NCBI GenBank assembly: GCA_027366525.1
Contig: DAHXKG010000001.1
Span: 1-64,000 of the forward strand
Reading direction: 5' to 3'
DNA: 64,000 nt
From: a candidate division FCPU426 bacterium
GTDB lineage: Bacteria; Oederibacteriota; Muellerivitia; Muellerivitales; DAHXKG01
Below are positions 5,812 through 39,118 of the stretch, piece after piece (position 1 is the stretch's first letter; each line of letters opens with the position of its first letter). The notes beneath the pieces are model-generated. The model searched no databases, had not been told where the DNA came from, and worked only from the letters and a program-made list of their open reading frames with translations. Both the position numbers and the translations under genes were made by a program.

Positions 5812-5849
5812 GATTACCCCTTTTAATTATTAAAATCAGGATGTCAAAT

Positions 5850-5880
5850 ATTATATTCCAAATTCAAGCTTTATTTGGAA
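5850..5880 (-). promoter_or_regulatory. Candidate ilvE promoter -10 with adjacent inverted repeat
   Basis: Reading the minus strand, TTCCAAAT and ATTTGGAA (5880-5873 and 5863-5856) form a perfect 8-base inverted repeat with a 9-base spacer. It ends exactly where a TATAAT (5855-5850) begins. The arrangement is that of an operator overlapping a promoter. The matching -35 is poor, which would fit activator dependence. ilvE starts 39 bases downstream. No T-box features are seen. Confidence 0.35.
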
Positions 5881-6023
5881 ATGTTTTTATCGACTGATCA
5901 GATATATAATTTTCAAAATGCATCTTAGGTGCGGTTGATCTTTTCGAGTTCTAAATCATGTCATTTAGAAACTAACAATTTATGGGCTATATTATACTCA
6001 ATTTCTATTTCTATTCAAAATTT

Positions 6024-7043: not shown

Positions 7044-7045
7044 AA

Positions 7046-8080: not shown

Positions 8081-8099
8081 TCATTTATCCTATTAATGT

Positions 8100-9155
8100 C
8101 TATATTTTAATTGACTCCATAACCTCTTCTTCAGTTATTTGATATAAGCATTTATATTTATCTTGAATCAAACACTTTTTTTTAAAACAGGGACTGCATG
8201 GTATTTTATGGTATAAGATTTTGTCATTGCCTCCCCATGGCCCAGTCCAATTAGGATTGGTAGATCCAAATAAAGCAATCGTAGGTATCTGAATTGCAGA
8301 AGCAACATGCATTGAACCTGTATCGTTTGAAATTAATAGTTTACAATTTGATAGTATAACAGCTAACTCAAGAACCGTCGTCTGCCCAACTAAAAATCGG
8401 ATTCGACTTTTGGTGGATAATTCCCAAGTATCAACTTCATCATAAAATTCTTTAAAATAAGAAACTTCTTGTCCACTACCAAGAATTATAATATTTTCCG
8501 TTCTTGTTTTTAAAATATTCTGAGTTAACTTCTTCCATCGTGATAATGGCCATCGCTTAGTAGGCCCATATGTAGCTCCAGGAACCAAAGCAATCCATTC
8601 ATTTTTAGACAATTCAAATTTATCCAAAATAAATTTGAATTGTCTCGAGTTAAAAACTTCTTTTAAATATCCAATATTGACTAATTTTGTTCTAAGATCA
8701 AAAGCTTTTATAACTAAATCTAAATATTCATAAACTAAGTGATGGGTTCTGTAATTTTTATAAGAAATACTTTTAGTTAATAACCAACTTCTTAATTCTG
8801 ATTGATATCCAATACGGTTTTTAATGCCTGATCTCCAAGCTAGCCATGCCGACGAAAATGATAATGGGAAAACAAGAATAGTATTGAATTGATATTTTTG
8901 AACATATTTTTTAATACTTTTTACTTGATTTTTAAGTGAATAGTCCGGGTTAAAACTTAATATTTCTTTTAAATGAGGGATACATTTAAAAAACGATATA
9001 TAACTAGGTTGTGTAAGAACGCTAATCTCCCAATTTGGGAACGATTGAAGAAGTAATTGAAGCGCCGGCAGGCTCATCATTACATCTCCAAGCCAATTTG
9101 GCGTACGAATTAAAATTTTTTGTTTGTCAAATTTAGAAATCAAAATTCCTCTCAA
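8100..9155 (-). CDS. waaF: Lipopolysaccharide heptosyltransferase II-type GT9
   Basis: 351 residues with the classical WaaF signatures: RTPNWLGDVMMSLPAL near residues 18-33, PGATYGPTKRWP in the hinge, and ISNDTGSMHVASA for nucleotide-sugar binding. WaaF transfers the second L-glycero-D-manno-heptose to the inner core. A C-terminal Cys cluster (CSPCFKKKC, then a fourth Cys) is present. The first candidate start is TTG at 9155, overlapping the stop of the GT2 gene; a TTG four codons later follows GAGAGG and is as likely. waaC could be one of the neighbouring GT9 genes. Confidence 0.87.
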   Translation of the reverse strand: MRGILISKFDKQKILIRTPNWLGDVMMSLPALQLLLQSFPNWEISVLTQPSYISFFKCIPHLKEILSFNPDYSLKNQVKSIKKYVQKYQFNTILVFPLSFSSAWLAWRSGIKNRIGYQSELRSWLLTKSISYKNYRTHHLVYEYLDLVIKAFDLRTKLVNIGYLKEVFNSRQFKFILDKFELSKNEWIALVPGATYGPTKRWPLSRWKKLTQNILKTRTENIIILGSGQEVSYFKEFYDEVDTWELSTKSRIRFLVGQTTVLELAVILSNCKLLISNDTGSMHVASAIQIPTIALFGSTNPNWTGPWGGNDKILYHKIPCSPCFKKKCLIQDKYKCLYQITEEEVMESIKI

Positions 9156-9931
9156 TAATCTAGCCGATTCAATTCAAAAACTTTTATGTACTTAATAAAG
9201 CTATTACACGCAGATAAACCGCATACAATCACGCCAATCCATCCATCTAAAAAACCCAGTTTTAAAATAAACATTTTTATAAAAACAAACGGTGGATCAA
9301 ATAAAATATGAAAAAAACACCATTTTTTCTTCGCATTCGAAACTTGACTAGCAGCTAACGTAGTATATATCTCCATTTTTTGAAAATAGTGCGAAATAGA
9401 CCTGTAACTATAATGCAACATAGGATATTTTAGTTTTTTAATTGAACCTTGAACCTCTAAACTTTCATGTACTTTTCGGCTGTTAAATTTTCCAAACCCC
9501 TTTCGGAAAAGTCGCAATTGAAAATCTGGCCACCATCCCGCATGACGAATCCATTGTTCAGCAAAGAAGGTTTTTCGTGCGATTTGAAATCCATTGTAAT
9601 TAGTTTGACTCTTCAACTCCTTGCTAATTTCACTTGCTAATTCAGCAGTGAGCCGCTCATCAGCATCTAATGAAAGAATCCATTGTCCGCGTATATGTTC
9701 AAAAGCAAAATTTTTTTGCTGAGCATATCCCAACCAAGCATGAGTTAGAACTCGAGCTCCAAGTTTTTTAGCCATTTTTGCTGTCATATCGGTACTTTGA
9801 GAATCTACAACAAGTATTTCAAATGAAAGCAATCGTGAAAAATGCTCCAAACAGCTTTGTATACAAGGTTGAATATTGTTACTTTCATTATGGGTAATTA
9901 TAACCACTGATAGGATTGGGTTATTTTTCAT
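9152..9931 (-). CDS. GT2 glycosyltransferase, WaaE/KdtX type
   Basis: Inverting GT-A glycosyltransferase of about 259 residues. It has LSVVIITHNESNNI at the N-terminus, LSLDADERL as the metal-binding DxD region, and RLFRKG plus KVHESL, which are typical of LPS core beta-glucosyltransferases related to WaaE/KdtX. A hydrophobic C-terminal segment may attach it to the membrane. I prefer the ATG at 9931 to the GTG seven codons upstream; neither has a clear Shine-Dalgarno sequence. It sits between a GT9 gene and waaF, which supports a role in core decoration. Confidence 0.85.
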   Translation of the reverse strand: MKNNPILSVVIITHNESNNIQPCIQSCLEHFSRLLSFEILVVDSQSTDMTAKMAKKLGARVLTHAWLGYAQQKNFAFEHIRGQWILSLDADERLTAELASEISKELKSQTNYNGFQIARKTFFAEQWIRHAGWWPDFQLRLFRKGFGKFNSRKVHESLEVQGSIKKLKYPMLHYSYRSISHYFQKMEIYTTLAASQVSNAKKKWCFFHILFDPPFVFIKMFILKLGFLDGWIGVIVCGLSACNSFIKYIKVFELNRLDY

Positions 9932-9994
9932 TGAAATACTATAGCAAATCACACATACAACGTCTAGTTAAGGAACTTGAAACAAAATTTGAAA

Positions 9995-11032
9995 TTACAT
10001 TTTTTGAATAACACGACTGATAGCAGACTCCACGTAATCAACTGAAATATCATACATGCATCGAAAATGGCCTAGCGGACAATGATTCCGACCATGAATA
10101 TGACAAGGACGACAAGTCAAATTGGTTGTCTCAATAATGCTATGTTTGCCCCATGGGTAAAAGCCCAACTGCGGTACCGTCGATCCAAATACAGCAACTA
10201 CTTTGCAGTTTCGACCCGCCGCCAAATGCATCCATCCTGAATCATTGCTGATAAAAACATCACATCGTTCGGCAATCGCAACTGATTGTGATAACGAAAG
10301 ATCTTGGGCTAAGTTAATTCCATTATTTGTTATTCCCATTGAACTGACTTTATCCTGAATACTTTGAATTAGCGGAATTTCATTTTGACTTCCAAACCAA
10401 AAAATATTCATTGCATAATGCTCTGCGAGGCGAACAGCCAATTCTGAAAAACGTTCAGGAATCCATTGCTTTGTCTTCCATCGTGATCCTGGTGCTATCC
10501 CAACCACTAATTGGAATGGTGAAATTCGTTTCTTTTTCAAAAACTCACGTACAAATCCAGAATCCTTCTTCGAAACAGGGATTTTATAATTAATTTTTTT
10601 GGGCAATGGAACTTCCCATTTTTTAAACGTTTGAAGATATCGAATAATCACATGTGGTACTGGAGATAGAATTTTATTTTTAACCATCTGTTGCCGTTCT
10701 GCATGCAACTTGGGATAAACTGCCCAATGTTTTTTGCTTAAAAAAAGCCTAATGAGTTTAGTTCGGAATGAACTATGAAGATCTAGCACAAATTGTGCAT
10801 TGGTTTCTTTTAGCCGCTTTAAGTGATTGATCCATGCATCTGGTGTATTTTGCTCTAAATAAATTACTTTGGGCTTTATGGGATGATTTTCAATCAAGTT
10901 TTGATATTGAATTTTAGTTGCGTAATAAACCTCAGCACTTGGCCACTGCGAATAAATAAAATCCAGAACCGGAAAGGTCAGTACAACATCTCCCAACGAT
11001 GAATATCTCAAAATCAGGAACCGTATTTTCAT
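9995..11032 (-). CDS. Glycosyltransferase family 9 (heptosyltransferase type) 4
   Basis: 345-residue GT9 enzyme. RFLILRYSSLGDVVLTFPVL forms the N-terminal acceptor-side loop and ISNDSGWMHLAAGRNCKVVAVFGS the nucleotide-sugar site. The C-terminal Cys cluster is complete: CRPCHIHGRNHC followed by a further Cys. The ATG overlaps the stop of the LpxL-type gene by four bases (ATGA), so translation is coupled. As the first GT9 after lipid A and Kdo genes it is a candidate for the first heptose transfer (WaaC function), but this rests on position, not on motifs. Confidence 0.88.
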   Translation of the reverse strand: MKIRFLILRYSSLGDVVLTFPVLDFIYSQWPSAEVYYATKIQYQNLIENHPIKPKVIYLEQNTPDAWINHLKRLKETNAQFVLDLHSSFRTKLIRLFLSKKHWAVYPKLHAERQQMVKNKILSPVPHVIIRYLQTFKKWEVPLPKKINYKIPVSKKDSGFVREFLKKKRISPFQLVVGIAPGSRWKTKQWIPERFSELAVRLAEHYAMNIFWFGSQNEIPLIQSIQDKVSSMGITNNGINLAQDLSLSQSVAIAERCDVFISNDSGWMHLAAGRNCKVVAVFGSTVPQLGFYPWGKHSIIETTNLTCRPCHIHGRNHCPLGHFRCMYDISVDYVESAISRVIQKM

Positions 11033-11931
11033 TGACTTATTTCTGTCGCATTATTTTCATAGTGTTTCCATCGACGATGAAACCAAAAATAATGATCCGG
11101 ATTCTTTTTGATGAAATTTTCCTGAGCTTTCACCCAATTTTGAGTAGCTGTTAAAATATCATGCTCAACATTATCCGTCTCTGGAACTATAATTTCAGGA
11201 AGAACTACATTGATAAATCGATCGGGTGAATTTTTTTTTCGAAGTAAAAAAGTTGGGAACAGTGCTGCATGTGTTTTTCGGGCAATTGCTGCCGGGGCCT
11301 TTGACACCGAACATGGTCTTCCTAAAAAAGATAGCCTTAAACCAGAATCACCTGCATTTTGATCTGCAAGCATCCCAACAACACCGCCCATTTTTAAATG
11401 GGCTATAATATCCCGCGTTCCTTGGTGACCGGTATAAATAACCTGCATTCCACTACTCTCGCGCTTTTCTCTGATCAATTGATCAACGCGCTTATTGGAT
11501 TGTGGAAAGGCTATAACCTTTAAAGAATACCCACGTTTTGCCCAAATAGTTCCATGCAACTCCCAATTTCCAAAATGTGCAACCAACGCAATAACTCCAC
11601 GACCTTTTTTTAATACTGCATCAACCATTTCTTGATTTTGAAATTCCACATGATAAAAAAGCCAATCGGAATCAAATCTCGAAAGATAAAAAAATTCACC
11701 TAAATTCCGCCCTAATTGTCGATACATTTTTTTTAAAATCAAATCAACTCTTAAAGCACTCCAATGCGGGAAGCTTTCACTAATGTTCTTTCTAGCTAAT
11801 TTGCGATATTTTGGAAGAATCCAAAAGGCTATTCGAGAAATAAAAGAACCACTCCAACAGCATATTTTTAATGGTAGAAATGAAAAAACAAAATCAATTA
11901 TTTTCAAAAAAAAATATTCTATGTTTTTCAT
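11029..11931 (-). CDS. lpxL: Lipid A lauroyl/myristoyl acyltransferase, LpxL family
   Basis: A 300-residue member of the LpxL/HtrB family, which acylates Kdo2-lipid IVA using acyl-ACP at the inner membrane. The catalytic HX4E-type motif is in VAHFGNWELHG (about residues 118-128). The N-terminal hydrophobic segment is a membrane anchor. The DQNAGDSGLRLSFLGRP and APAAIARKTHA blocks are typical. The ATG overlaps the lpxK stop (ATGA). A second, partial LpxL-type gene is at the right end of the window, so two secondary acylations are plausible. Confidence 0.9.
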   Translation of the reverse strand: MKNIEYFFLKIIDFVFSFLPLKICCWSGSFISRIAFWILPKYRKLARKNISESFPHWSALRVDLILKKMYRQLGRNLGEFFYLSRFDSDWLFYHVEFQNQEMVDAVLKKGRGVIALVAHFGNWELHGTIWAKRGYSLKVIAFPQSNKRVDQLIREKRESSGMQVIYTGHQGTRDIIAHLKMGGVVGMLADQNAGDSGLRLSFLGRPCSVSKAPAAIARKTHAALFPTFLLRKKNSPDRFINVVLPEIIVPETDNVEHDILTATQNWVKAQENFIKKNPDHYFWFHRRWKHYENNATEISQ

Positions 11932-13058
11932 GAATTAGAACACATTAAAATAATATTTTTCAAAATATTTTCCCATCTAGTTTTCCCTTTGAAAATTTCC
12001 AATTCAATTTCTAAAACCAAAATAGGAATTCCATAATTCTCGTCCAACGGAATTTTCACTAAATCCTTTTCAGTTGTAATAAGATGAGTTACTCCATGCT
12101 TTTTGACATCCTGCACGATTTCCAAAAGTTTTTCTTTTGAATACGTATAATGATCTTTAAAATGATAGGCATGTTGAACCAAAATGTGAAATTGCTCCAG
12201 TGTTCGAATAAATGATAGTGGATTAGCAATTCCTGAAAAAACTCCCACTGAATGATCATCCAAATCATCTGGTTTTATTTTTTCTCCTGTCAAAACATTT
12301 TTAAGAGCAACCGGCCGATATACCGATTCCATTAAATAGGCCCTCGAATTATAGGATTCAATAATAGTTTTAATATCTTGGGCATTAGAAATCAGGTCTA
12401 CTTTATTTAAAATAATAACATTTGCCTCTGATAAACATTGCATTGGTTCTCTTAATAATCCAGCAGGCAAAACATATCCACTACTAAAAGGATTCAAGGC
12501 ATCAATGAGTAAAATATCCAAGTTGCGATGAAGATTAAATCGCCGTTGAAATCCATCATCCAAAATAATTAAGTCAGGATTGAATTTTTGAATAACTTCC
12601 TTTCCAACAACATATCGATTATGTCCAACCACAACCGCTGCCTGAGGAACTTTTTTGGCAATTAAAACTGCTTCATCGCCACTTTCAGCTGGTGTTGCTA
12701 AAATTTCTTTCCCATTCGAAACCCAAACAATTTCTGAAAGCTTTTGTGACCGCCCATAGCCTCTTGTTAAAATTGCCACTCTTTTTCCAGCATTCGTAAA
12801 ATGTGTTGCTAATTTGATTACCAGTGGTGTTTTTCCAGTACCACCCGTCGTCAGATTCCCAATGCTAATCACCGGACATGATAATTTTAATTTTTTGAAC
12901 ATCCTCGTACGATAACTAACTTTCTTAATCCACCAACCAAATAGGAAAAGATATGATAGAAGTTGCAAAATAAAAAAAATGATACTTGCTAAAAAATTTT
13001 TTTTCTTTTTAGAGTTAATTAAATTTAAATACTCGTTTTTAAAATCTCTCAGTCGCAA
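11928..13058 (-). CDS. lpxK: Tetraacyldisaccharide 4'-kinase
   Basis: Phosphorylates the 4' position of the lipid A disaccharide at the membrane. The P-loop is GNLTTGGTGKTP (residues 67-78), the family-specific long Walker A. A hydrophobic N-terminal helix near residues 22-45 anchors it, and LDDGFQRR and TTEKDLVKI are typical. It has 376 residues, slightly longer than usual because of the N-terminus. The apparent start is TTG at 13058, touching AGGAG directly; a CTG two codons later has a better 6-base gap, so the true start is unsettled. It is coupled to lpxL by an ATGA overlap and follows waaA after 86 bases. Confidence 0.94.
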   Translation of the reverse strand: MRLRDFKNEYLNLINSKKKKNFLASIIFFILQLLSYLFLFGWWIKKVSYRTRMFKKLKLSCPVISIGNLTTGGTGKTPLVIKLATHFTNAGKRVAILTRGYGRSQKLSEIVWVSNGKEILATPAESGDEAVLIAKKVPQAAVVVGHNRYVVGKEVIQKFNPDLIILDDGFQRRFNLHRNLDILLIDALNPFSSGYVLPAGLLREPMQCLSEANVIILNKVDLISNAQDIKTIIESYNSRAYLMESVYRPVALKNVLTGEKIKPDDLDDHSVGVFSGIANPLSFIRTLEQFHILVQHAYHFKDHYTYSKEKLLEIVQDVKKHGVTHLITTEKDLVKIPLDENYGIPILVLEIELEIFKGKTRWENILKNIILMCSNS

Positions 13059-13144
13059 CTCCTAATTAAGGTATTTATTTTTACAGTTTATCGAAGCTTG
13101 AGAGTCATGACAAGTAAAACGCAAGGTGATTTTTTAATTAAATT

Positions 13145-14425
13145 TTATACAAATAAAGAGTCTTCAATGATTTTTAAGGTTTTTTCGGTTGCACCACTTA
13201 AAGACTGAATCGCATTTTTAGCTTGCTTCCCGATTTGAGCAAAATCACTTTTTAAAATTTGGCTTATAACTTGTGGCAATTCACCAATAGTTTGAATTTG
13301 AAATCCGCCTCCATATTTTTGAAGTATATCCGCAGCTTCTTTAAAATTCGAAATAAACGGGCCAAAACAAACTGGTTTTTCAACTAAAGCGGGTTCCATC
13401 AAATTATGTCCGCCAATCGGCACAAGCGTACCTCCGACAAAACAAACACATGAGCAAGCATAAATTTTTGATAATTCACCTAATGTGTTTAAAATCAAAA
13501 TTCTCCAATTTTCACGATTTACATTACCGGTTCGAAGATGAAATTTAAGATCCATTTTCTTCAACCGTAATATTAGTTCATCTAAGCAACTTAAATGGCG
13601 AGGCGCCAGTACTATTCGAATATTAGAGGAAATATCCAGCATTGTAGGTAGAATTGGTACAATTAGCTCAATTTCTTCTTCTCGAATACTTCCAAGTGTT
13701 ATTAAGTGATCCGACGATTGAATGCCCATTTCTAATTTAAATTGATTTTCTAGCTCCGATTCCCGAAATTCCAAATCATATTTCATTTGTCCAACTACAT
13801 AAATATTACTTGAAATAACACCTAGATGTGAAAGTCGATTTTGATCTTCCGAAGTTTGGACCAAACATTTTTCAAAACTATTTAATAAACTTTCAAAAAG
13901 AAATCTAAACCGATAATAACTTTTGAATTTCTTTTCAGAAATTCGTCCATTGATAAGAATTACCGGAATGCTTTTCTCTCGGGCATACATCAACCAATTT
14001 GGCCAAAATTCCGTTTCAACTATTAAGATCATGCTTGGGTTTAATGCTCCAAAACTTCTTTTTAAGCACTGTTCAAAATCCAAAGGGGCTAAAAAAACAT
14101 GATCTGCAATTTTAAGCTTTTGAGCAAAAGCTTTTCCGGAATTAGTCGTCGTAGTTAAAATGATTTCGAACGAACTATTTTTTTTTTTCAAATGCTGACA
14201 AAATAATCGAATGGCATTTACTTCTCCGACTGAAGCTGCATGTATCCAAATAGTTTTCATTTCATGATGATTTTTTGAATAAAATCCAAATCGTTCGTTC
14301 AGATCCTTTAAAAAAAATTGTCCTATCCCATACGCAATCCAAAACAAAGGATAAATTAACAGCATTAACCATTGATAAAGCAACTCATAAATTTTTCGAG
14401 GCCGATTCATAGATATTGCATTCAC
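13145..14425 (-). CDS. waaA: 3-deoxy-D-manno-octulosonic acid transferase
   Basis: GT30 enzyme (426 residues) that adds Kdo to lipid IVA, linking lipid A to the core. The N-terminal membrane segment is followed by IWIHAASVGEVNA, whose Glu is the catalytic base in the family. ETEFWPNW and GGHNLMEPALVEKPVCFGP mark the acceptor and CMP-Kdo regions. The start is GTG overlapping the stop of the DUF374 gene (GTGA). Whether it adds one or two Kdo residues cannot be read. Kdo synthesis genes are not in the window. Confidence 0.94.
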   Translation of the reverse strand: MNAISMNRPRKIYELLYQWLMLLIYPLFWIAYGIGQFFLKDLNERFGFYSKNHHEMKTIWIHAASVGEVNAIRLFCQHLKKKNSSFEIILTTTTNSGKAFAQKLKIADHVFLAPLDFEQCLKRSFGALNPSMILIVETEFWPNWLMYAREKSIPVILINGRISEKKFKSYYRFRFLFESLLNSFEKCLVQTSEDQNRLSHLGVISSNIYVVGQMKYDLEFRESELENQFKLEMGIQSSDHLITLGSIREEEIELIVPILPTMLDISSNIRIVLAPRHLSCLDELILRLKKMDLKFHLRTGNVNRENWRILILNTLGELSKIYACSCVCFVGGTLVPIGGHNLMEPALVEKPVCFGPFISNFKEAADILQKYGGGFQIQTIGELPQVISQILKSDFAQIGKQAKNAIQSLSGATEKTLKIIEDSLFV

Positions 14426-15090
14426 AAATTAGCATTCGTAGACGTAAAATAATTTTCAGCAATTCTAGTAATACGATCTAATTCTATTTGAACTTTTTCA
14501 ATATACCATGCATCGGTTTCACCTTTTCGAGGTATCGTAATTGGGTTCCCATATACAAAAACTGCACGACTAAATGGTTTGGGAATAATAAATCGGTCCC
14601 AACTTTTTAGCCGCCAACCTCGCTCAACTTCAAAAGCAAAAGGAACGACCGGACAATGTGCTAATCGTGCAATTAAAACAACCCCCTGTTGTACTTTGCG
14701 GCGTGGGCCCTTAGGGCCATCCGGTGTAATAGCGGCACGATTACCCTTCAACACATGTGAAACTAATTCCCGCGCAGCTTCTAATCCGCCTTTGGATGAA
14801 GAGCCGCGAATAGGGCTATATCCAAGTTTATGAGAAATTTCAGAAATAATTTCTCCATCACGACTTGCTGAAATCATCACATGGACCTGCTTAAATCGGT
14901 GATACCATACACTCGTAAAAATAGTTTCATGCCAAAGTGCCCAAAGAATAGGATAGCCCTGCTTGGCTCGTGGACCCAAGTCACTTCTGCCTTCTTCATT
15001 GATCCTTAACGAACTACCTATTACAGCCATTAACCCTAAGCCTAACCATGTGAGCACTTTATCTTTCCATGACAATTTATATGTATTCAT
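14422..15090 (-). CDS. DUF374 lysophospholipid acyltransferase-like protein
   Basis: A 222-residue protein of the DUF374 family, relatives of LpxL/PlsC acyltransferases. The short ALWHETIF segment carries the presumed catalytic His, and ISASRDGEIIS and AITPDGPKGPRR are diagnostic of DUF374. I choose the ATG at 15090 because it overlaps the lpxB stop by four bases; an upstream in-frame start would overlap by much more. The gene sits between lpxB and waaA, as in many diderm lipid A operons. The substrate is unproven; acylation of lipid A or of a phospholipid intermediate is the likely role. Confidence 0.85.
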   Translation of the reverse strand: MNTYKLSWKDKVLTWLGLGLMAVIGSSLRINEEGRSDLGPRAKQGYPILWALWHETIFTSVWYHRFKQVHVMISASRDGEIISEISHKLGYSPIRGSSSKGGLEAARELVSHVLKGNRAAITPDGPKGPRRKVQQGVVLIARLAHCPVVPFAFEVERGWRLKSWDRFIIPKPFSRAVFVYGNPITIPRKGETDAWYIEKVQIELDRITRIAENYFTSTNANL

Positions 15091-16247
15091 ATATAATTTT
15101 TTGCTTTTAGCCAATTTAAAATTTTCCTTGTTGTAAATTCAAAATGGAATTCCGGAAAAGATAATAATTTCTTGATTTTAAGAAACTGCTGCACTTGTTC
15201 ACTTCTTTTTTGGGAAGATTGTAACAGATCAATTGTACATTCAACAATATTTTCTGGTATGGCCTTTTCCAATAATAATTCTGGAACTTTAGACCCACAC
15301 CCTAAAAGATTAACAATAGCAACATGAGATAATCGGACCCAACGTTTGGCTATCATAGATGAAATTGCCGTCATTTTATAAACTACCACCATGGGTGTTC
15401 CTAACAAGGCAGTTTCCAATGTACTCGTTCCAGATTTAACCCAAGCCATATGACATGATTTTCTCCAGTAGTAGTCATTGGCCTTAATTATTTTGAAATG
15501 ATTTCCCAATAAAAGGCTTTTAAAGTGCTTTTCTATTTGTGGTGAAGCACATGGAATCAAAAATACTGCCGATGGATACTTTTCAAGTAAAAGATATGCT
15601 GCTCTTAAAAACAATGGTCCCATTTTATCAATTTCTGATTTTCTACTTCCAGGCATCATACAAATTAGAGGGAATGTCTTGAATGGAAAATCAAGTTGAA
15701 GTAATGTTTTTTTAAATGTCTGCTTCGCTTGAGGAATTTCTTGTATTAGTGGATGACCAACATATGTGGCTGAAATTTTTTCTTTTTGAAAATAAGTTTC
15801 TTCAAACGGAAAAATCACCAACAAATAATCTATTACTTTTTTCATTAATTTTAATCGCTTAGAATTCCATGCCCATACTTGAGGAGCAATATAATAGATA
15901 ACAGGAATGTTTTGTTTTTTAGCAACTTTAGCTAATTGCAAATTAAACCCTGGATAATCAACTAAAAAAAGGAAGGTTGGTTTCTCATCCTTTAACCACT
16001 GAACACATTTAAAATATCTTTTCAAAATCAATGGAAAATATCTTACAATTTCAATAAATCCAGCAAGAGCAGGGTGTGTTAAATCTTCACGAATATCCGC
16101 TACTTGTGAAAGTTTAGGCCCGCCCATCCCAAAAAACCTTATCGTTTTATTTTTTTGAGTAATCATTTGAATGAGTCTAGCTGCATGTTCATCAGCTGAT
16201 GGGTCGCCAACAACAACCATAGCGGAATTTTTATGGGGCAAAGTCAT
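15087..16247 (-). CDS. lpxB: Lipid-A-disaccharide synthase
   Basis: GT19 enzyme condensing UDP-diacylglucosamine with lipid X to form the lipid A disaccharide. 386 residues match the family. VVGDPSADEHAA replaces the E. coli GEASGD motif in a way common in other phyla. RFFGMGGPKL, VYYIAPQVWAWN and MPGSRKSEI follow in the expected order. The ATG overlaps the upstream dehydrogenase stop (ATGA) behind AAAAGG. lpxA, lpxC, lpxD and lpxH are not in the window. Confidence 0.95.
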   Translation of the reverse strand: MTLPHKNSAMVVVGDPSADEHAARLIQMITQKNKTIRFFGMGGPKLSQVADIREDLTHPALAGFIEIVRYFPLILKRYFKCVQWLKDEKPTFLFLVDYPGFNLQLAKVAKKQNIPVIYYIAPQVWAWNSKRLKLMKKVIDYLLVIFPFEETYFQKEKISATYVGHPLIQEIPQAKQTFKKTLLQLDFPFKTFPLICMMPGSRKSEIDKMGPLFLRAAYLLLEKYPSAVFLIPCASPQIEKHFKSLLLGNHFKIIKANDYYWRKSCHMAWVKSGTSTLETALLGTPMVVVYKMTAISSMIAKRWVRLSHVAIVNLLGCGSKVPELLLEKAIPENIVECTIDLLQSSQKRSEQVQQFLKIKKLLSFPEFHFEFTTRKILNWLKAKNYI

Positions 16248-26966: not shown

Positions 26967-26970
26967 AAAA

Positions 26971-27331
26971 GCAAGCAGATCATAAGCCGAATTCTGTTTA
27001 AGTGATCATTTCTCTATATAGTATCGTTGCCGATACCATTTAGCGATCATACCCGGGAGTTTACCTTAAATAAAGGTGATGGTGGATAACCTTACCTCCC
27101 CTATTTGATCTTGCTCCAGATGGGGTTTGCCTAGCAAGATCTTTCACAAGATCTCCGGTGGGCTCTTACCCCGCCTTTTCACCCTTACCTAATTTCTAGG
27201 TGGTTTGTTTCTGTGGCACTTTCCTTCAGTTCGCTTTAAACTGACTGGTCGTTAACCAGCATCCTATCCTATGGAGTTCGGACTTTCCTCGATTGAATTG
27301 AGTTTCAATCATAATCACCCGTCTGCTTGTC
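26971..27331 (-). ncRNA. rnpB: RNase P RNA, bacterial class A
   Basis: About 361 bases encoding the catalytic RNA that trims the 5' leader of tRNA precursors. On the minus strand the 5' end reads AAGCAGACGGGTGA, followed by GAGGAAAGTCCGAACTCC (P4/J-region core), later GGTGAAAAGGCGGGG and TAAGAGCCCACCGG, then GGATAACCTTACC. The 3' end CTTATGATCTGCTTGC pairs with the 5' end. Length and pieces fit class A. The 5' boundary is set from the promoter and pairing. It has its own promoter and terminator. Confidence 0.95.
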
Positions 27332-30398: not shown

Positions 30399-30754
30399 TT
30401 AATTTTTTTCATCTGTTTCATTTTCCATACTATGATGTAGGACCTGTACATCTTGTATAGTAATCAAACAATGTGTCGGCAGCATAGGTTCAATGATTTT
30501 AAGAAGGCTTAATGCATTATCAGATTTTTCAATAACCTCAATGAGCACTGGCAAATGCTCTGTTGCTTCCAAAATATGTGTTGAGTGAATATGCCGCGTT
30601 ATTCCAAAACTTTCTATCCCTTTATAAACAGTAACGCCTGCTATCCCGGATTTATTTAATAATTCAATCATCGCTTGATATAATAAACCATGCTTCCATT
30701 TTAATGTCTCATCAATATAAATTTTAATTACTTTACATGGGCCTTTAATCCCAT
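30399..30754 (-). CDS. DUF190 protein with apparent 5' frameshift
   Basis: DUF190 is a small ferredoxin-fold family often encoded beside crcB. The readable ORF with a normal start begins at ATG 30671 (90 residues: GIAGVTVYKGIESFG, then the HILEATEHLPVLIEVI core) but lacks the first strand and helix. Those parts are present upstream in the same frame (KGPCKVIKIYIDETLKWKHG) without any ATG, GTG or TTG. A perfect start (AAGGAG, 6 bases, ATG at 30754) exists one frame away. One extra G in the GGG after that AT would restore a protein of about 118 residues. So this is a sequencing error, a real frameshift, or an unusual ATT start. Confidence 0.75.
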
Positions 30755-30785
30755 AATATGCTCCTTGATATTTTATCCCCTAAGA

Positions 30786-31160
30786 TTAAAAAAGTCTTGC
30801 AACCACTACTCCAGCCCAAGTTGCTAACAAACACCCTAAAACATTTGCAAGAATATTTAAAAACCCGAAAGTTATATTTCCCTCTGAAAAATAGCGAAAT
30901 GTTTCCCAACTAAAAGTCGAAAATGTTGTAAAAGATGCACACCATCCAATAGCTAAAAAATAACGTGTATTCGCTTGAAAAACTCCGCGTTCTAAATTTA
31001 AAAATAAAAACCATCCTAGTATAAAAGATCCAATTAAGTTAATGATCCATGTTCCATACGCGAAATGTGTTCCCCATTTTTCAGAAGTCCAATTTGCAAG
31101 CCAATAACGACAAGAAGCTCCTAATGCCGCTCCCATCCAAATCCATAAATATTTAATCAT
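30786..31160 (-). CDS. crcB: Fluoride channel CrcB/Fluc
   Basis: 124 residues with four membrane segments. Dual-topology Fluc dimers export fluoride passively. Family hallmarks are GAALGASCRY at the N-terminus, the pore segment GTWIINLIGSFILG with its Asn, and CASFTTFSTFSWE with the Phe box and Thr residues. The single gene implies a homodimer. It follows the YfhO gene by 17 bases, so there is no room for a fluoride riboswitch directly upstream. The DUF190 gene follows. Confidence 0.94.
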   Translation of the reverse strand: MIKYLWIWMGAALGASCRYWLANWTSEKWGTHFAYGTWIINLIGSFILGWFLFLNLERGVFQANTRYFLAIGWCASFTTFSTFSWETFRYFSEGNITFGFLNILANVLGCLLATWAGVVVARLF

Positions 31161-31177: not shown

Positions 31178-33271
31178 CTATTTAAATCGAAAATTATTTG
31201 AATTTAAAAAATTCCAACTCAGGATGAAAACTATACTACATATTCCAAATAATGCAACAAACAAACCAATCACAAACGAATTAGGCCAGTACAAAAAAAC
31301 CACTTTCGACAATCCTGAATTTGAAATTTCAACAGCCATGAAATATGTATCCGCACGAAAAATAGGTACTGATTTTCCATTAATCCACGCCTTCCACCCC
31401 GGGTCAAAAGCAGTACTAACTACCATATATTTTGGTTTATTGGAATGACTTTGAAATTCCATAAAACAAGGCGAAGCTTTTTCAAAATCAAGCTTATTAT
31501 CATAAAATCCTTGAGGCAATTTTTTATTACATTGTTTCAAGTGAACTACTGATAGTTTTCTCTGTTCTAAAAAAACATCACGTTCAATAAATGCTGATGA
31601 ATTTAAAATTTTTTCAAACTCATTCGATCGTGTTTTACACGTTACTGCTTTACTATCTTCCCAAACACGAGGTTGACTGCCAGCATTTTTAAAAACATTT
31701 AAAAAATCGCTTGAAAAAACTTTCTTATATTTAAAAAAATTTAATGGACCATGAAAAAGTACATATTTAACATTGGCTGCGTCAAACAATCGTCCTTCAT
31801 ACGGGTAACCATGTTCAATATACAATAAAAAATCTTGATATCCTTTTAAAAAGAAAGAGAGATAAGCATTAATAGAATTAATCTGAAACACCGAATTCGA
31901 ATTTGGTTGTAATGAACGGACTAATTCATTACAAGAGCCTTGAAACGTTTCTGATGCCGGAGAAAGAGGTTGTCCATGGACAGCTAAGCTTAAAATTCGA
32001 GAACCTTTTGAAATTTTCTTTATTCTTTCAACAGTTTGAATAACTTTAGCATTTAAATACGGGTTTTTAACCCAACGAATGACTCTAAACGGGATCATAC
32101 CAATATCCATTACCCATAAACCTATGATTAAAAATACTATTTTTTTCCATGGCGAACTTCGCATTTTTTTAAATAGTTGATCGGTCAAAAATCCAACCGC
32201 CGTTAAAGCCGCAAAAATAAATATAAACGATGATTTAGATCTTTCGAGCATAATAAGCCACTTTGGCATAAATGAAATTCCAATACTTGGAAGAGAGATC
32301 ATAAAAAAAAGCCATATAACCGAGCTCCAAGAAAAAAATCGTTCATTTTTATTTTTCAATAAAAACAAACTCATGACCCACAGAATTAAAGGAATTACTC
32401 CAAAGTATAAGTTGAAAATAAAATTTTGATATCGACCTTGATATCCCAGTATCCCAGGGAATCCAAGCGAAGTGGGTTGAAATAAAGTTAGGTAATGGAT
32501 CCACCGAAAACTATATCCATCATTCGACCATCCAAGACGATAAGAAAAATGAAGTTCTCCTAAGAATGGTATCCACTGATTGGCTGTTAAAGTCAGACTC
32601 ATTAAAAATGCAGCTATAATTTTTAAAATGGTTGACCTAGGACGCTGTTGAAAAAGAAGCCAAAACCAAACAAAAATCCAAGTATAAAAAACAAATTGTG
32701 GATACCCAGCCCAAATTTGAAAACTCAAAACTGCTACTAATCCCCAGAATTGTTTCCAAGAAAATTCATCCATGTTTTTTTGTACCAGCCAAAAAATCCA
32801 TGGTACCCAACTCAATGTCGCCAAATGCGTTGGAAATCCCCAGAATTGAACCATTTGGGCAGTACCCGAAAAACTCAATGCACATAATGAACTTGTTATT
32901 TCAGAAACGCGTTGACTGCGCATCCAAAAATAAAATCCAATAAAAGCTAAAAATTCGTGGAATAATGCCATTCCAACAAAAGTTTTCCAAAATCCGAATA
33001 AATTCCATAACCAAAAAAACGGATAAAAAACCCCAGGTTGCCAACAGGCTAATTGGGGAGTACCTGCCCCAATATATGGATTCCATAGTGGAATTAATCC
33101 CTTTTGGAAAGAAAAAATATTAACCCATTTTTCCGGTATTACATACAAAAGCGTATCTGCAAATCCAGGAATCATTTTTTGAGTTAAAATTCCCCACAAG
33201 ATTAGGGTTAATGCGTAACAACATGCCACTACCAAGAAAAACTTGTTTATTTTTTTTGAAGTAAAATCCAC
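31178..33271 (-). CDS. YfhO-family multi-pass membrane protein 1
   Basis: About 697 residues with roughly a dozen membrane helices and a C-terminal soluble beta domain. LIPLWNPYIGAGTPQLACWQPG in the first periplasmic loop and the final AWINGKSVPIFRADTYFMAV are YfhO hallmarks. YfhO proteins are GT-C-like and in Bacillus take part in lipoteichoic acid glycosylation. I take GTG 33271 as start: it lies nine bases after GGGGAGG and within the end of the upstream YfhO gene; ATG codons slightly upstream are alternatives. Role here: probably transfer of a lipid-linked sugar onto an envelope glycan. Substrate unknown. Confidence 0.8.
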   Translation of the reverse strand: MDFTSKKINKFFLVVACCYALTLILWGILTQKMIPGFADTLLYVIPEKWVNIFSFQKGLIPLWNPYIGAGTPQLACWQPGVFYPFFWLWNLFGFWKTFVGMALFHEFLAFIGFYFWMRSQRVSEITSSLCALSFSGTAQMVQFWGFPTHLATLSWVPWIFWLVQKNMDEFSWKQFWGLVAVLSFQIWAGYPQFVFYTWIFVWFWLLFQQRPRSTILKIIAAFLMSLTLTANQWIPFLGELHFSYRLGWSNDGYSFRWIHYLTLFQPTSLGFPGILGYQGRYQNFIFNLYFGVIPLILWVMSLFLLKNKNERFFSWSSVIWLFFMISLPSIGISFMPKWLIMLERSKSSFIFIFAALTAVGFLTDQLFKKMRSSPWKKIVFLIIGLWVMDIGMIPFRVIRWVKNPYLNAKVIQTVERIKKISKGSRILSLAVHGQPLSPASETFQGSCNELVRSLQPNSNSVFQINSINAYLSFFLKGYQDFLLYIEHGYPYEGRLFDAANVKYVLFHGPLNFFKYKKVFSSDFLNVFKNAGSQPRVWEDSKAVTCKTRSNEFEKILNSSAFIERDVFLEQRKLSVVHLKQCNKKLPQGFYDNKLDFEKASPCFMEFQSHSNKPKYMVVSTAFDPGWKAWINGKSVPIFRADTYFMAVEISNSGLSKVVFLYWPNSFVIGLFVALFGICSIVFILSWNFLNSNNFRFK

Positions 33272-35460
33272 ACTCCCATTCCTCCCCATACAAGACATGC
33301 AATTAAACAAAAAAACAGACCGACCCGAAATGTTCGCGGTTTATAAACCAACAATATTTTTTGAATATTGGAATTTAACGCAATTCCACAATATAAGTGG
33401 TCAATTAATATTGGTTTTACATAACAATTATGTGCCGTTTGAAACCTCCAACCAGGATAGAAAATAACAGGAGTAACTAAAAGAGCCTTATGAGTACCCA
33501 GGGCATTTATTTGAATTTTTTGTGGTGAAATTCTTTTTTTAAAAATTAATCGTGGATAAAAAAAACCTTTATCTTGAATACTCGAAACCGTACAAATTTT
33601 AAATAAATTCCAGTGTTGTTTTGAAATACGGCGAAAATCCATTTGCAATGAAGGCATTTCCAAACGAGCTTCTCTAATTGATATCCAAGATGATATAAAA
33701 TTTTTATTTTCAAAAATTTTATAATGATCTAATGGTATTTTTAAATCCACAAACTCAGGCAAATGAATATTTCCAACTGCATACTGAACATTCATAAAAT
33801 TTAATGCTTGTTGAGTTAAAAAAAATGAATAATGGAAAAATGTCTCATACCAATCTTCCGCGCGCTTCAATTGAAGGGTATTATAAAATGGAATGCATTT
33901 TCGTTTAAAAGCTATGGGCCAATTTAAATAAATTTCTTGCTTTGTCATTTGATAAATTGATTTCCAATTTTTTCCATAAACCCATCGCATTTTTTCAAGA
34001 GTATAAGGCGAATAAAAAATAGCACCTTTTTTTTTATTTAATGCCGTTAAAATTTTAGGCTGAATCTTATAATAAGAACTTTTCATCTCCGTTTTAATAT
34101 TCCAAGCAGCTGGCCACAAAGATAAAAGGATTGCGCTCAATAAAAAAATATATCGCATTTTTTCCCATATAACTGATAAAAAAACGCACCCTAAAGACAT
34201 CCAAAAAAATACTCCAAAATGAAAAAAAGGGTGATAGATTCCTAAATCAAAATGGTTCCAAAAAAATGATATTCCAAAAATTATTACGCTCAAAAAAAGA
34301 AAAGTCACTTTTTCCCAATATTGAGTCATTGTTAAAAACGAAGGAATAATTTGAACGACCGATCGTGCTAAATAAAATACAATCAAAGGAATGAAAAATC
34401 CAGAATGAACAATCCATGAAAATCCAGGAAGACTCTTTCTTAAAATCAGGGCTATACCCAAACTACCTGAAAGACTAAATAATATAAATATACCAGCCAA
34501 AGCACTCAACTTGTAGTGAAATTTTTTTTGGATACTTGCCCAAAGGATCAATATTAGCGGGGGAAGCCCAATAAAGAAATTTCTAACCCAAAATTCACCG
34601 TTATAAATCCCTTTTTTTGGATTTCCAAAGCAAAATGGTGAAAAAAAAGTCTTTAAATCACTAAATTTCAAATTATCATAAAAATGAACTCCTTGGCTGT
34701 AATTCGTTTGTTTTAAAAATTCCAGAAACGGAATACCCCATACCGCATTGTAAAAAGCCGCTATTATTACCCCCATGACTAACCCGGGAAATATTTCACG
34801 TAAAAATTTAACCGTAATCCCATGTTCCAATATCAATTCAAGTCCCAAAGCCAGTGTAGTTAAATAACAAAAAACCGGATAACCTGAAGCCATTTGAAAA
34901 GCAAGAGACAGAGAAAAAAATAATAATCCACTTTTTTTTTGTAAAACAATTTGATCCATTGCCCAAAAAATCCATGGAATCCATGAAACACTTAAAACTG
35001 CTATCGGAACAGATACCATTGAAATCAAATTCAGGGAAAAAATAAATATAATTGTGCCAATTAAACAAGCTTGAAATGAAAATTTTTTACTGCTCATTAA
35101 TAAATAAAATCCCAACATGCCCCAAAAATATCCGAATAATAAAATCCAAGAAAAAGCCGTTGAAGTTTTAAAACATTTTAAAAAAATAAATACAATGGGA
35201 TTCGCTATGGCCATTTGTGGATCTGCCAAATAGGGGCTTCCGCCTAGCCCGGCAAATGGATTCCATAATGGAATTTTTCCATTTTTAAATATACTGCTTC
35301 CCCATTTCCATAAGGGGAAAAAGAACCGTGATGAATCCATCATCACAAAAACATTTTTTCCACTGAGAATATTCCAGTAAAAAACACACAATAAAAAAAA
35401 TAATATGCCAATCCCTAAAAAATGTTGTTTGAATCTTAGTTTAAAATAATTAAGTCGCAT
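33247..35460 (-). CDS. YfhO-family multi-pass membrane protein 2
   Basis: 737 residues with many membrane helices. IPLWNPFAGLGGSPYLADPQ is the equivalent of the first-loop motif in the downstream paralogue, and the same C-terminal ending (PGWRFQTAHNCYVKPILIDHLYCGIAL) is found, so the two genes are an old tandem duplication. The sequences are clearly divergent, suggesting different acceptors. The gene is nine bases downstream of the double Wzy gene and overlaps the next YfhO gene, which ties all three to one operon and probably one pathway of surface glycan assembly. Confidence 0.82.
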   Translation of the reverse strand: MRLNYFKLRFKQHFLGIGILFFLLCVFYWNILSGKNVFVMMDSSRFFFPLWKWGSSIFKNGKIPLWNPFAGLGGSPYLADPQMAIANPIVFIFLKCFKTSTAFSWILLFGYFWGMLGFYLLMSSKKFSFQACLIGTIIFIFSLNLISMVSVPIAVLSVSWIPWIFWAMDQIVLQKKSGLLFFSLSLAFQMASGYPVFCYLTTLALGLELILEHGITVKFLREIFPGLVMGVIIAAFYNAVWGIPFLEFLKQTNYSQGVHFYDNLKFSDLKTFFSPFCFGNPKKGIYNGEFWVRNFFIGLPPLILILWASIQKKFHYKLSALAGIFILFSLSGSLGIALILRKSLPGFSWIVHSGFFIPLIVFYLARSVVQIIPSFLTMTQYWEKVTFLFLSVIIFGISFFWNHFDLGIYHPFFHFGVFFWMSLGCVFLSVIWEKMRYIFLLSAILLSLWPAAWNIKTEMKSSYYKIQPKILTALNKKKGAIFYSPYTLEKMRWVYGKNWKSIYQMTKQEIYLNWPIAFKRKCIPFYNTLQLKRAEDWYETFFHYSFFLTQQALNFMNVQYAVGNIHLPEFVDLKIPLDHYKIFENKNFISSWISIREARLEMPSLQMDFRRISKQHWNLFKICTVSSIQDKGFFYPRLIFKKRISPQKIQINALGTHKALLVTPVIFYPGWRFQTAHNCYVKPILIDHLYCGIALNSNIQKILLVYKPRTFRVGLFFCLIACLVWGGMGVWILLQKK

Positions 35461-35468: not shown

Positions 35469-38441
35469 TTATTTTAATTCCTTTTTAAATTGCTGAATTT
35501 GATTTTCAAGGGCAATCTGTACTTTTGGAGAAATAAAAACCAATTGATGATTAATTGGATTTCTGCATTTTTTTCCCCATTTTTCCGAGATTTTTAAAGC
35601 TCGTTGATAATATGAGCATGCTGATGTTATGCATCCTTGATTTTTCATAATCGATCCGAGATTAATCCAAGCCGCAGCATAATTCGGTTCCAGTTCTACG
35701 GCCTTACAAAATTCCAATGTCGCTTTGTGCACATGGTTTTCATAAAATAAATAAAAAAGTCCTTGATCATATCGAATAAATGCCAAGTACGGTTGTGTAT
35801 GCTGAGCGTTTATCCAGTCTATTTGAACTTTTTTAAAATATTTTTTAGTTCGTTGCATTTCGGCGATTTGTTCATCCCATAATGCGCGTCGTATCCAAAA
35901 CGAGGTTCGCTCTGGCTCTAAACGCCTTGTTTGATGCCAATTGTGATTAGCATGATTCAGCCAAATGGGATCTTTCGTCAATAGGAACATATGATCTGAA
36001 AATTCAGCCATAGCACAATAATATTTTGCATTCCATGGATCTAATTGTTTACAATTTTCTAGAATCAGAAAATCTTTTTGGTAGTGATTGTATTTTTTAT
36101 AATCTAAGTATTGAGAATAAAGATGCGATGAAAAAACTGGAGGAATAAAAATTCCCATTGCGATTCCCGTAACTATTATTCCATTAGCCCAAAATAAAGA
36201 GCGTTTGCGTTTTTTCTCCCATCTTGATGCAAATCCAACTGCCTCAAGACTAATTAGCGGAGTATGAAAACAAAAATCAAAAAACGCTGCAATCGAGAAA
36301 GCACTCATTACTGATTTTTTGAAAACCGCGGTCTTGTTTTTTTGAATCCAATAAAAAGTAAGTGATATTAAAAATAAGAAACCCAAAATTCCAAAAGCTA
36401 CTAAAAACTCGAGAAATTCATTATGTGTAACTTCTGCGGTCATTAAGTATCGACTGGGGCCTGAAAATCTTGGAAATTTAAATTTTTGATATAGATAGTT
36501 AAACATTCCTGGTCCAACTCCGAACCATATATTACTTACCCAAATTTTAATGGCAGATGCCCATATCCAAACTCGAGATAAACTAGTAGGACTCGTATCA
36601 TCTAAGCGCATTTTCAAAACAACAATCCCGATTATTCCGCAGATAGTTATCCATAACCAATTTAATTTTTTTCTAAAAAAAACTACCCATCCTAATAAAA
36701 TACCCAAGATTGCACTGACTGACCAAATTCGAATTATAGTTAATACTGCCAAAAAACCCAGCAGCCATTTTTCCCATCTATTGCTCATTTTTAAAAATAT
36801 CCAAAGTACTACTGGAATCAAAAAAATAGCTAAATGTTTTGGATTTGGAAATATTGTGTAATTAGGATAAAAATTGAAACTGTTAGGGAACCATATTTTT
36901 ATAGCCCAGACTAATCCTAATGTGGAGAACCAAAACATAAAATTTTTTCCATCTTTAAGTTTGGAAATGATCAAAAACAGTGCAATGACTAGTCCCGCTA
37001 GCTCAATCGAAAATACCATCCCTCTAGCAGAAGATGTTAAAAAGCTTCTGCCCAATAAATAAGCAAAACCTAAAAAAATCCAACTTTTAATGTTTTTAAA
37101 TTGCCCACCTAAAAAAGCCAATGTCCCCCAAACAACAACTCCCAGCATTCCAATATTCCAATTCAAAAATGGAGGCCAAAAAGCTGAAACTGCAAAAGCT
37201 AATAACATGATTATTTCAAAAATTTTATTTGGTAATCTTATTGGACAACTCCAAGTACTTTTAGTCGTCACTGGAATCAGCGCAGCTAAAAAACAAAATA
37301 TCCATACTAATTCCGGCATTTGAAATGGAATATCAATCAAACTAAAAATTAGAAATGCAAAAACCCCAATGGTTATGGCTCTTTGTCTGGAAGTCTGATT
37401 CCATTGGATTCGTCCCCAAAAAGAAATTGTTAAACACATTATTAAAATGAACCCCAATAATCCTTGTTCCACTAGAACTTGAAACAATAAATTGTGTGCA
37501 AATCTAGCCCCGGATGTTAATGGAAAATGTAAAGCTTGATACGCTGCTCCAAATGTTCCGACGCCAAATCCATTAATGGGGCGATTTAAAAATATTCTCC
37601 ACGCCTCAGTCCATAAAATAATTCGACCCTTAAATGCTAATAAAAACCAACGGTGTATTCCTCGATTAATTAAAATTGTCAAAATTAACAACGAACCAAA
37701 TATAATAAAGCCATATCGATATATTTTTTTAAAAAAAGGCGGCACTATTAAAATGGCAGATATAAACAAGCTAATCCAAGCTCCTATACTTTTTGTATAA
37801 ATCAGTGCCAATCCCACTACTATCAAACCCATTCCATATACCATTCGCATCCCATTGGATTGTTCTTTATCAAGGGTGCGCTGAATAAAAATTGGTAAAA
37901 ACAATATAAGTAAGGCTCCCAATGCCCCAGAAGTTACTAATGGTCCAAAACTTCTTCTGGATACTAATGCATTTTGGACTATTGATTTTACATAAGAATT
38001 AAATGTTGGTAGTTCTTGTTGTAATTCTGGAAAAATGAAAAAGTGTTGCCAAATTGCAATCATGGCCACAAAACTTGTCACTGCCATACTTATTGAAATA
38101 ACATTATTTTGAATTTTTGAAGAAATTGATCCTGAAATTAAATAAATAAATAATCCCAAACATAAGAATCCAAAAGCTTGAAAACTTTTTCCAATATTTA
38201 ACGACCAAAAACAAGATAAAAAAGTTTCCATTAAAAATACTAAAAACCACCCTCCTATTTTTTCATAGTGAACATTTTCAATTTTTTTGAATAAAGCTAA
38301 TACAAGTCCACTCCCCAAAGCAATTGCATAAAATTTGTGATATTGAAATGGAGGGTTAAAAACAAGAGCAACCCAAGTTGCTAAGAAAATAGTTGCAAAA
38401 AGCGCATCAGACGATATTGAGTATTTAAAAAGTTTTTTCAT
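35469..38441 (-). CDS. Tandem O-antigen ligase/polymerase (Wzy_C x2) with TPR tail
   Basis: 990 residues. Module 1 (about 1-390) carries RIILWTEAW, GFGVGTF and AHNLLFQVLVEQGLLG; its His316-Asn317 is the catalytic-type loop. Module 2 (about 405-740) repeats the whole plan: RVWIWASA, WFGVGPGMFNYLY, and THNEFLEFLVAFGILG with His673-Asn674. Residues 780-990 contain TPR-like helices (YAAAWINLGSIMKNQG). Single Wzy_C proteins with a TPR tail are common; two full modules in one chain are unusual. It should act in the inner membrane with a periplasmic active loop on lipid-linked glycans. Ligase and polymerase cannot be told apart by sequence. Confidence 0.83.
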   Translation of the reverse strand: MKKLFKYSISSDALFATIFLATWVALVFNPPFQYHKFYAIALGSGLVLALFKKIENVHYEKIGGWFLVFLMETFLSCFWSLNIGKSFQAFGFLCLGLFIYLISGSISSKIQNNVISISMAVTSFVAMIAIWQHFFIFPELQQELPTFNSYVKSIVQNALVSRRSFGPLVTSGALGALLILFLPIFIQRTLDKEQSNGMRMVYGMGLIVVGLALIYTKSIGAWISLFISAILIVPPFFKKIYRYGFIIFGSLLILTILINRGIHRWFLLAFKGRIILWTEAWRIFLNRPINGFGVGTFGAAYQALHFPLTSGARFAHNLLFQVLVEQGLLGFILIMCLTISFWGRIQWNQTSRQRAITIGVFAFLIFSLIDIPFQMPELVWIFCFLAALIPVTTKSTWSCPIRLPNKIFEIIMLLAFAVSAFWPPFLNWNIGMLGVVVWGTLAFLGGQFKNIKSWIFLGFAYLLGRSFLTSSARGMVFSIELAGLVIALFLIISKLKDGKNFMFWFSTLGLVWAIKIWFPNSFNFYPNYTIFPNPKHLAIFLIPVVLWIFLKMSNRWEKWLLGFLAVLTIIRIWSVSAILGILLGWVVFFRKKLNWLWITICGIIGIVVLKMRLDDTSPTSLSRVWIWASAIKIWVSNIWFGVGPGMFNYLYQKFKFPRFSGPSRYLMTAEVTHNEFLEFLVAFGILGFLFLISLTFYWIQKNKTAVFKKSVMSAFSIAAFFDFCFHTPLISLEAVGFASRWEKKRKRSLFWANGIIVTGIAMGIFIPPVFSSHLYSQYLDYKKYNHYQKDFLILENCKQLDPWNAKYYCAMAEFSDHMFLLTKDPIWLNHANHNWHQTRRLEPERTSFWIRRALWDEQIAEMQRTKKYFKKVQIDWINAQHTQPYLAFIRYDQGLFYLFYENHVHKATLEFCKAVELEPNYAAAWINLGSIMKNQGCITSACSYYQRALKISEKWGKKCRNPINHQLVFISPKVQIALENQIQQFKKELK

Positions 38442-38469: not shown

Positions 38470-38922
38470 TTACTTACCATTTTGCAAAAGAAGTTCTGCT
38501 GCTTTTAAAGCTAGTATATAACTATATTTTCCAAATCCGATCACCTGTCCTGTAGCAACCAATGAAATATACGATGTTTGCCGGAAGGATTCCCGAGCAT
38601 GAATGTTCGAAAGATGTACTTCTATAGTCGGTAATTGAACTGCTGCTAATGCATCCCGGATTGCAATGGATGTATGTGTATAGGCGGCTGGATTGATAAT
38701 AATTATGTTCGCCCAGTTCCGAGCATTTTGAATAGTCTCAACAATTTCACCTTCGTGATTTGATTGAACTATCTTTAAATCCAACTGATTTTGTGAAGCT
38801 TCTTTTAATAACTCTTGATTTATTTCTTCTAAAGAAAAATTTCCATAAATTTGCGGTTCCCGCTCGCCCAAAAGATTTAAATTAGGACCATGAATAATTA
38901 ATATTTTACCCGTATTTTGCAT
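38470..38922 (-). CDS. aroQ: Type II 3-dehydroquinate dehydratase
   Basis: Shikimate-pathway enzyme (150 residues, the usual length) from ATG 38922, which has GGAAGG upstream; a longer in-frame extension would run through the inverted repeat and is not supported. HGPNLNLLGEREPQIYG holds the catalytic Arg and Tyr; SNHEGEIVETIQ and INPAAYTHTSIAIRDAL include the active His and Asn; VHLSNIHARESFR completes the site. It precedes the double Wzy gene by 28 bases. Confidence 0.95.
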   Translation of the reverse strand: MQNTGKILIIHGPNLNLLGEREPQIYGNFSLEEINQELLKEASQNQLDLKIVQSNHEGEIVETIQNARNWANIIIINPAAYTHTSIAIRDALAAVQLPTIEVHLSNIHARESFRQTSYISLVATGQVIGFGKYSYILALKAAELLLQNGK

Positions 38923-38981
38923 CTGATTACACCTTCCCAATAAACTTACTATTACTTCGCATTTAATATACGAAGATGATC

Positions 38982-39017
38982 TGAATACATTAACATTACC
39001 TAATGTTAATGTATTCA
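38982..39017. promoter_or_regulatory. 36-bp perfect inverted repeat upstream of aroQ
   Basis: TGAATACATTAACATTA is followed by CC and its exact reverse complement: 17-base arms with a 2-base centre. It lies about 60 bases before the aroQ ATG and about 100 bases after the glnA stop. No T-tract follows, so it is not an ordinary terminator. On the minus strand a -35-like TTAATG at its edge is 17 bases from TATATT, so a repressor bound here could block an aroQ promoter. Confidence 0.6.
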
Positions 39018-39118
39018 AATTCATATTATAGTAAAGAAAATTCTGTTTTTTTAGAAATGTGTATCGAATTAGATCTCATAATATTTTTTAATATTCCTAG
39101 ATAAAAAGCGTTTTTAAT

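Follow-up and report, generated by a model that had tools for sequence, protein, structure and literature searches.

Why would a bacterium build two O-antigen ligase/polymerase modules into a single polypeptide? The question is raised by a large gene in a candidate division FCPU426 genome, found in a stretch of 64,000 nucleotides that we refer to as the window. To our knowledge, the periplasmic coordination of polymerisation with ligation of lipid-linked glycans is an open question, and work on it has used separate proteins. A first-pass annotation, made from the letters and translations alone, described the gene product as two complete Wzy_C modules, both apparently catalytically intact, followed by a TPR-like tail. 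Here we ask whether the two modules are real, where they came from and what they might do together.

Module architecture of the double protein

The gene and its parts are as follows.

35469..38441, minus strand: double Wzy_C-TPR open reading frame, 990 amino acids, called from the open frame and its translation and conserved across the phylum
37257..38441, minus strand: N module, residues 1-395, Wzy_C / WaaL-like (PF04932, profile and fold matches to 7TPG)
36192..37256, minus strand: C module, residues 396-750, Wzy_C / WaaL-like (PF04932, profile match to 7TPG)
35472..36044, minus strand: C-terminal TPR-like tail, residues about 800-990 (TPR matches in a PDB search, sub-cut-off Pfam TPR matches, predicted all-helical)

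The frame runs on the minus strand from an ATG at 38441 to a stop codon at 35469-35471, with no internal stops. Each half passes the Wzy_C model PF04932 separately at the curated Pfam cut-off of 31.7 bits, applied per half (residues 1-395, 41.7 bits; residues 396-750, 36.1 bits). The solved structure 7TPG was found by the sequence profiles of both halves (E 2e-9 for the N half and 7e-14 for the C half); 7TPG/7TPJ is WaaL, the O-antigen ligase of Cupriavidus metallidurans (CAZy GT121). It was also the best fold match (probability 0.96, E-value 0.15) of an AlphaFold model of the N half, which was moderate (pLDDT 67) and served solely for this match. A full-chain model was poor (pLDDT 58) and matched mostly TPR proteins and other helical repeats in a fold search, and we left it out of the structural argument for the modules. 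Compared with hhalign, the halves prove homologous to one another, with a probability of 100% and about 15% identity.

After the second module comes a hydrophobic stretch at about residues 757-765 and then the tail, which is predicted to be all-helical and is the region of highest confidence in the full-chain model. Residues 751-990 give weak TPR matches slightly below the Pfam cut-offs, the best of them around 899-957 in the Pfam and PDB searches, in agreement with the tail proposed at the outset. The presence of two Wzy_C modules and a TPR tail in one chain, as first described, is confirmed.

Distribution, origin and gene neighbourhood

We searched 384 genomes for the double chain, 45 from the window's phylum and about 340 from outside it; order-level relatives of the window's genome are mostly titled candidate division FCPU426. 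The chain is present in about 42 of the 45 phylum genomes and across most families. In all, 41 double proteins were listed. In 39 of them both histidine positions can be read within a single frame, and the other two are truncated at contig ends; a further double protein occurs in genome G021. No double chain was found in G012, G017 and G043, phylum genomes of 82-89% completeness. Among the matches listed for the roughly 340 outside genomes, with the top candidates per genome scored, none spans both halves; any double chain should have ranked first among the candidates of its genome. Three small other phyla (12 genomes) yielded no independent fusion. The survey for further double-module proteins that the first-pass annotation had suggested thus finds them throughout one phylum, with none listed outside it.

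Single-module relatives outside the phylum are of two types: an N type of about 415-740 amino acids, in which TPR may be present or absent, and a C type of about 620-735 amino acids that has TPR. The closest single relative of the N half has about 414 amino acids and no TPR. In a phylogenetic tree, the N halves of the double proteins group with N-type singles and the C halves with C-type singles of other phyla; the tree was built quickly and contains many long branches, and its exact placements are unsure. A tree constrained to keep every half of the doubles in a single clade is worse by 62.6 log units, and the AU test rejects it (p = 0.0007). Profile scores agree with the tree on this split, as most outside C-type singles reach 126-256 bits against the C profile versus 90 for the window's own N half. 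Judged by these sequence comparisons, the double chain is shown to be a natural fusion of two distinct glycosyltransferases of the O-antigen-ligase clan (Wzy_C, GT-C_B fold), and we infer that the two were already joined in the phylum's ancestor.

Three further genes define the surroundings of the double gene.

38470..39024, minus strand: aroQ, type II 3-dehydroquinase, the conserved upstream neighbour (PF01220, E 2e-59)
33247..35460, minus strand: open reading frame of a large membrane protein, immediately downstream of the double gene and YfhO-like by position and length only
31178..33310, minus strand: YfhO-family membrane protein (PF09586, 43.3 bits)

The double gene lies directly behind aroQ in 31 of 39 stretches, the exceptions being mostly contig ends, inserted genes or start-site ambiguity. 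Outside the phylum, five genomes of family f109 have aroQ immediately upstream of a C-type single, and in three loci (L152, L154, L179) it stands just downstream of N-type singles. We also observed C-type Wzy_C genes immediately followed by a shikimate kinase, with pilin-like genes a few kilobases away (L171:6784-9178 and L181:7826-10218). The linkage to aroQ and shikimate kinase hints at what may be an old aro/type IV pilus gene cluster. On the downstream side, the membrane protein at 33247..35460 has no Pfam match, and YfhO genes immediately follow the double gene in three other stretches (L060, L072, L086), several families being represented, including the window's own. The YfhO link extends beyond the window's phylum: in genome G141, from another phylum, a C-type Wzy_C gene begins within a gene of the YfhO family (L169:4402-8968). 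Two families (L051, L066) have GT2 and WecA/MraY-type transferase genes downstream of the double gene.

Elsewhere in the window, DUF190 and CrcB genes lie together at 30399-31160; CrcB is a fluoride-channel family, and no fluoride riboswitch scored above the Rfam threshold in the window. A bacterial RNase P class A RNA gene occupies 26967-27330 on the minus strand, and no tRNA genes were found in the window.

An unfused arrangement is present in genome G275, one of the five f109 genomes (L163:272-4382), in which a type IV pilin gene, an N-type Wzy_C gene (414 amino acids) and a Wzy_C-TPR gene (775 amino acids) stand in a row; the Wzy_C genes share 4 bases, and T2SS/T4P genes lie further upstream. 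By gene order and module type, this pair is the apparent unfused counterpart of the double protein. C-type singles also directly follow pilin genes in three other loci (L172, L173, L176), and 21 of 31 genes for the O-oligosaccharyltransferase PglL are reported to lie next to a pilin gene (PMC3643930). A motif scan of the phylum stretches recognised no pilin gene directly beside the double gene, so the idea of a pilin acceptor is carried over from these relatives.

Active-site residues

In WaaL, Arg191 is a phosphate-binding residue that forms the diphosphate arginine pair with Arg265, and His313 activates the acceptor. Alignment to 7TPG places the following codons at two of these positions.

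37494..37496, minus strand: codon of His316, N-module counterpart of WaaL His313
37785..37787, minus strand: codon of Ile219, at the WaaL Arg191 position in the N module
36423..36425, minus strand: codon of His673, C-module counterpart of WaaL His313
36717..36719, minus strand: codon of Val575, at the WaaL Arg191 position in the C module

Both halves thus align an acceptor-activating histidine of the GT121/WaaL type (H316, H673) and the second diphosphate arginine, that of WaaL Arg265 (R273, R623). The motif positions originally given were all right: His316-Asn317 and His673-Asn674, the GxGxGxF-type turns (GFGVGTF at 291-297 in the N half, GVGPGMF at 641-647 in the C half) and the Arg-x3-Trp helices (R273xxxW277 and R623xxxW627). 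The equivalent of Arg191, part of an SRG motif, is absent from both halves of the window's protein in the 7TPG alignment (I219, V575). The first-pass annotation's full Wzy_C plan in both halves therefore holds for the domain and fails at this residue. Its view that both halves are catalytically intact is right about the histidine and the Arg265 equivalent and too strong as a whole, because no N half in the phylum retains the Arg191 equivalent, and neither does the C half of the window's protein; either half could therefore be weak or non-catalytic.

Across the phylum, H316 is retained in 40 of 41 double proteins and H673 in 36 of 39, and the catalytic histidine is kept in both halves at about 20% identity; like the Arg265 equivalent, it persists through deep divergence. 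These alignments lend good support to the view that the catalytic histidine is under selection in both halves. At the Arg191 position no N half of the phylum's double proteins has arginine, and the 40 C halves with a letter there divide into 11 with arginine, 12 with lysine and 17 with another residue; among C-type singles outside the phylum, 18 of 20 have arginine. Arg163 is retained in 38 of 39 N halves, and the aligned WaaL residue is also an arginine (Arg139). The patterns of conserved arginine positions differ between the two halves. R260, considered as a member of a PglS-like arginine set, was dropped, as it is not conserved in N-type singles. Taken together, these patterns suggest that the Wzy_C fold may tolerate loss of the WaaL Arg191 while the catalytic histidine stays.

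Two natural experiments bear on the need for each half. Genome G031 encodes the only double protein whose N half has lost Arg163 and His316 (L057), and it is also the only phylum genome with a strong stand-alone N module (L143), a copy that keeps both residues. This one case suggests that the N activity may be needed and able to act in trans. In all three genomes of family f13 (L059, L070, L079), the catalytic histidine of the C half is replaced by glycine and its conserved arginine by lysine, and no obvious replacement for the lost histidine was found in the three genomes. This suggests that the C half may be less strictly required, at least in that family.

Proposed mechanism and relation to known systems

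On our best reading, the double protein is a fused pair of undecaprenyl-PP glycan transferases, and we favour, with a probability of roughly 60% as a whole, a natural fusion with two-step action on an undecaprenyl-PP glycan. Working on the periplasmic side of the membrane, both modules would take undecaprenyl-pyrophosphate-linked glycan as their substrate. In the first step the N module would either polymerise or move one glycan unit onto another. It would then hand the glycan over to the C module, whose TPR tail would recruit the acceptor for the attachment step, possibly a pilin-like subunit or another protein. With both active sites in one chain, the glycan would be kept from escaping after the first step. 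In the N module Arg273 (lysine in some relatives) and the conserved Arg163 would hold the diphosphate, and in the C module Arg623 would do so, with neither module using the full WaaL arginine pair. It is a guess that the halves split the work as polymerase and ligase, one extending the glycan and one, with the TPR tail, attaching it. The coupling of polymerisation and ligation, or the joining of two glycans, proposed when the gene was first noted, is a hypothesis that gains plausibility from the separate origin of the halves, the unfused pair near a pilin gene and the neighbouring glycan genes. We take this to suggest that two steps of surface-glycan assembly may be physically coupled in the phylum. 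The fuller statement, that of a phylum-wide enzyme with two different Und-PP-glycan transferase sites for successive periplasmic steps and with arginine sets unlike that of WaaL, is more tentative, and we would put it at somewhat less than even odds.

The main rival to two-step action assigns catalysis to one half alone and makes the other half a degenerate partner whose role would be to gate, stabilise or position the lipid-linked glycan. It draws on the Arg191 equivalent, missing from all N modules and from 29 of 40 C modules (lysine in 12 of the 29), and on family f13, which has neither the C-half histidine nor, with lysine in its place, the conserved arginine. However, the histidine counts in the two halves (40 of 41 and 36 of 39) argue for both sites, and the sole genome without an N-half histidine carries an intact stand-alone N module. 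PglS, an active relative, works with Arg159, Arg271, Arg278 and His324, and Arg159 is one of three arginines whose library clones lacked activity (PMC12800693). As N-module Arg163 resembles Arg159, a likeness by spacing alone, a different arginine set may suffice. On balance we regard a single active half as rather unlikely, though it is the most serious of the competing explanations.

The remaining alternatives carry far less weight. The protein could be the general LPS O-antigen ligase of the phylum with an extra module irrelevant to its function; membership of Wzy_C would fit, as would the lipid A/LPS-type genes at window ORFs 3812-16247, which were assigned by reading. Yet the same genome encodes a separate 394-residue Wzy_C protein with a canonical Arg191 equivalent (L038), the genes linked to the double gene are aroQ and YfhO, not those of the LPS core, and at least six other single Wzy_C proteins were found in the genome by a Pfam family search whose counts are lower bounds, because it missed the window's own double protein. 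The double protein thus need not be the main ligase, and by these counts it is one glycan system among several in its genome; we consider the LPS reading improbable. An internal duplication in one ligase, which would yield two equivalent modules performing the same reaction as a covalent dimer, is about equally improbable: the fold and motifs common to both halves would be expected of it, but a single clade of N and C halves is rejected by the AU test, the nearest single relatives differ between the halves, as do their conserved-arginine patterns, and we rejected it on the first two grounds. As for an assembly or annotation artefact that fused two neighbouring genes through a missing stop or a chimera, neighbouring Wzy_C genes do occur in related genomes (L163, L165, L166, L174), but about 40 phylum genomes share this fused frame, most of them with the same upstream neighbour. 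Since the chain is conserved in about 42 of 45, we ruled the artefact out and give it virtually no credence; the missing stop near residue 395 that the first-pass annotation had named as a danger did not materialise.

A fusion that keeps both histidines phylum-wide, set beside an unfused counterpart, offers a direct means of testing whether and why the two steps are coupled, and the N-half loss in G031 with its separate copy and the C-half histidine loss in f13 add natural cases for testing it. The two-site reading, if true, would describe the first coupled Wzy_C-Wzy_C machine of which we are aware, and the unfused pairs elsewhere would be its two-protein counterpart.

Among known systems, WaaL belongs to the same fold family, and its His313-Asn314, its Arg265 with a Trp four residues on and its GxGxGxF turn are matched in both halves; it differs in having one module per chain, in possessing the Arg191 that both halves lack here and in being without a TPR tail. 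PglL, TfpO and PglS are Wzy_C enzymes often encoded beside pilin genes, as are several C-type singles related to the C half, but unlike the double protein they are single-module enzymes. The PglL-specific Pfam models gave no match to the window's protein, and the N half scored 22 bits with the TfpM model, far below its cut-off of 600. In most inverting BP-Pols of the clan a conserved Asp/Glu replaces the histidine (PMC10920833); no such replacement was seen in the double protein, in which the histidine is kept.

The fold and the family are known, and in the literature searched we found no description of a phylum-wide conserved chain whose two Wzy_C modules differ in origin. That search also returned no characterised tandem Wzy_C enzyme, in line with the first-pass annotation, which had known of none. 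The closest bimodular relative that we found is WadA of Brucella and Mesorhizobium, a GT25+GT121 protein for which coupled action has been suggested (PMC10920833); it likewise joins a GT121 O-antigen ligase to another module in a two-module chain, but its second module is a globular GT25 and not a Wzy_C domain. The unfused pairs (L163, L165, L166, L174) have two Wzy_C proteins side by side, as separate genes. In L165:4234-8005, L166:3841-7651 and L174:4412-9151, all in other phyla, the first gene lacks an Arg191 equivalent and belongs to a group of its own in the tree, a different type from the N half. The first gene of L163 also lacks that arginine and ranks with the N half's closest single-module relatives.
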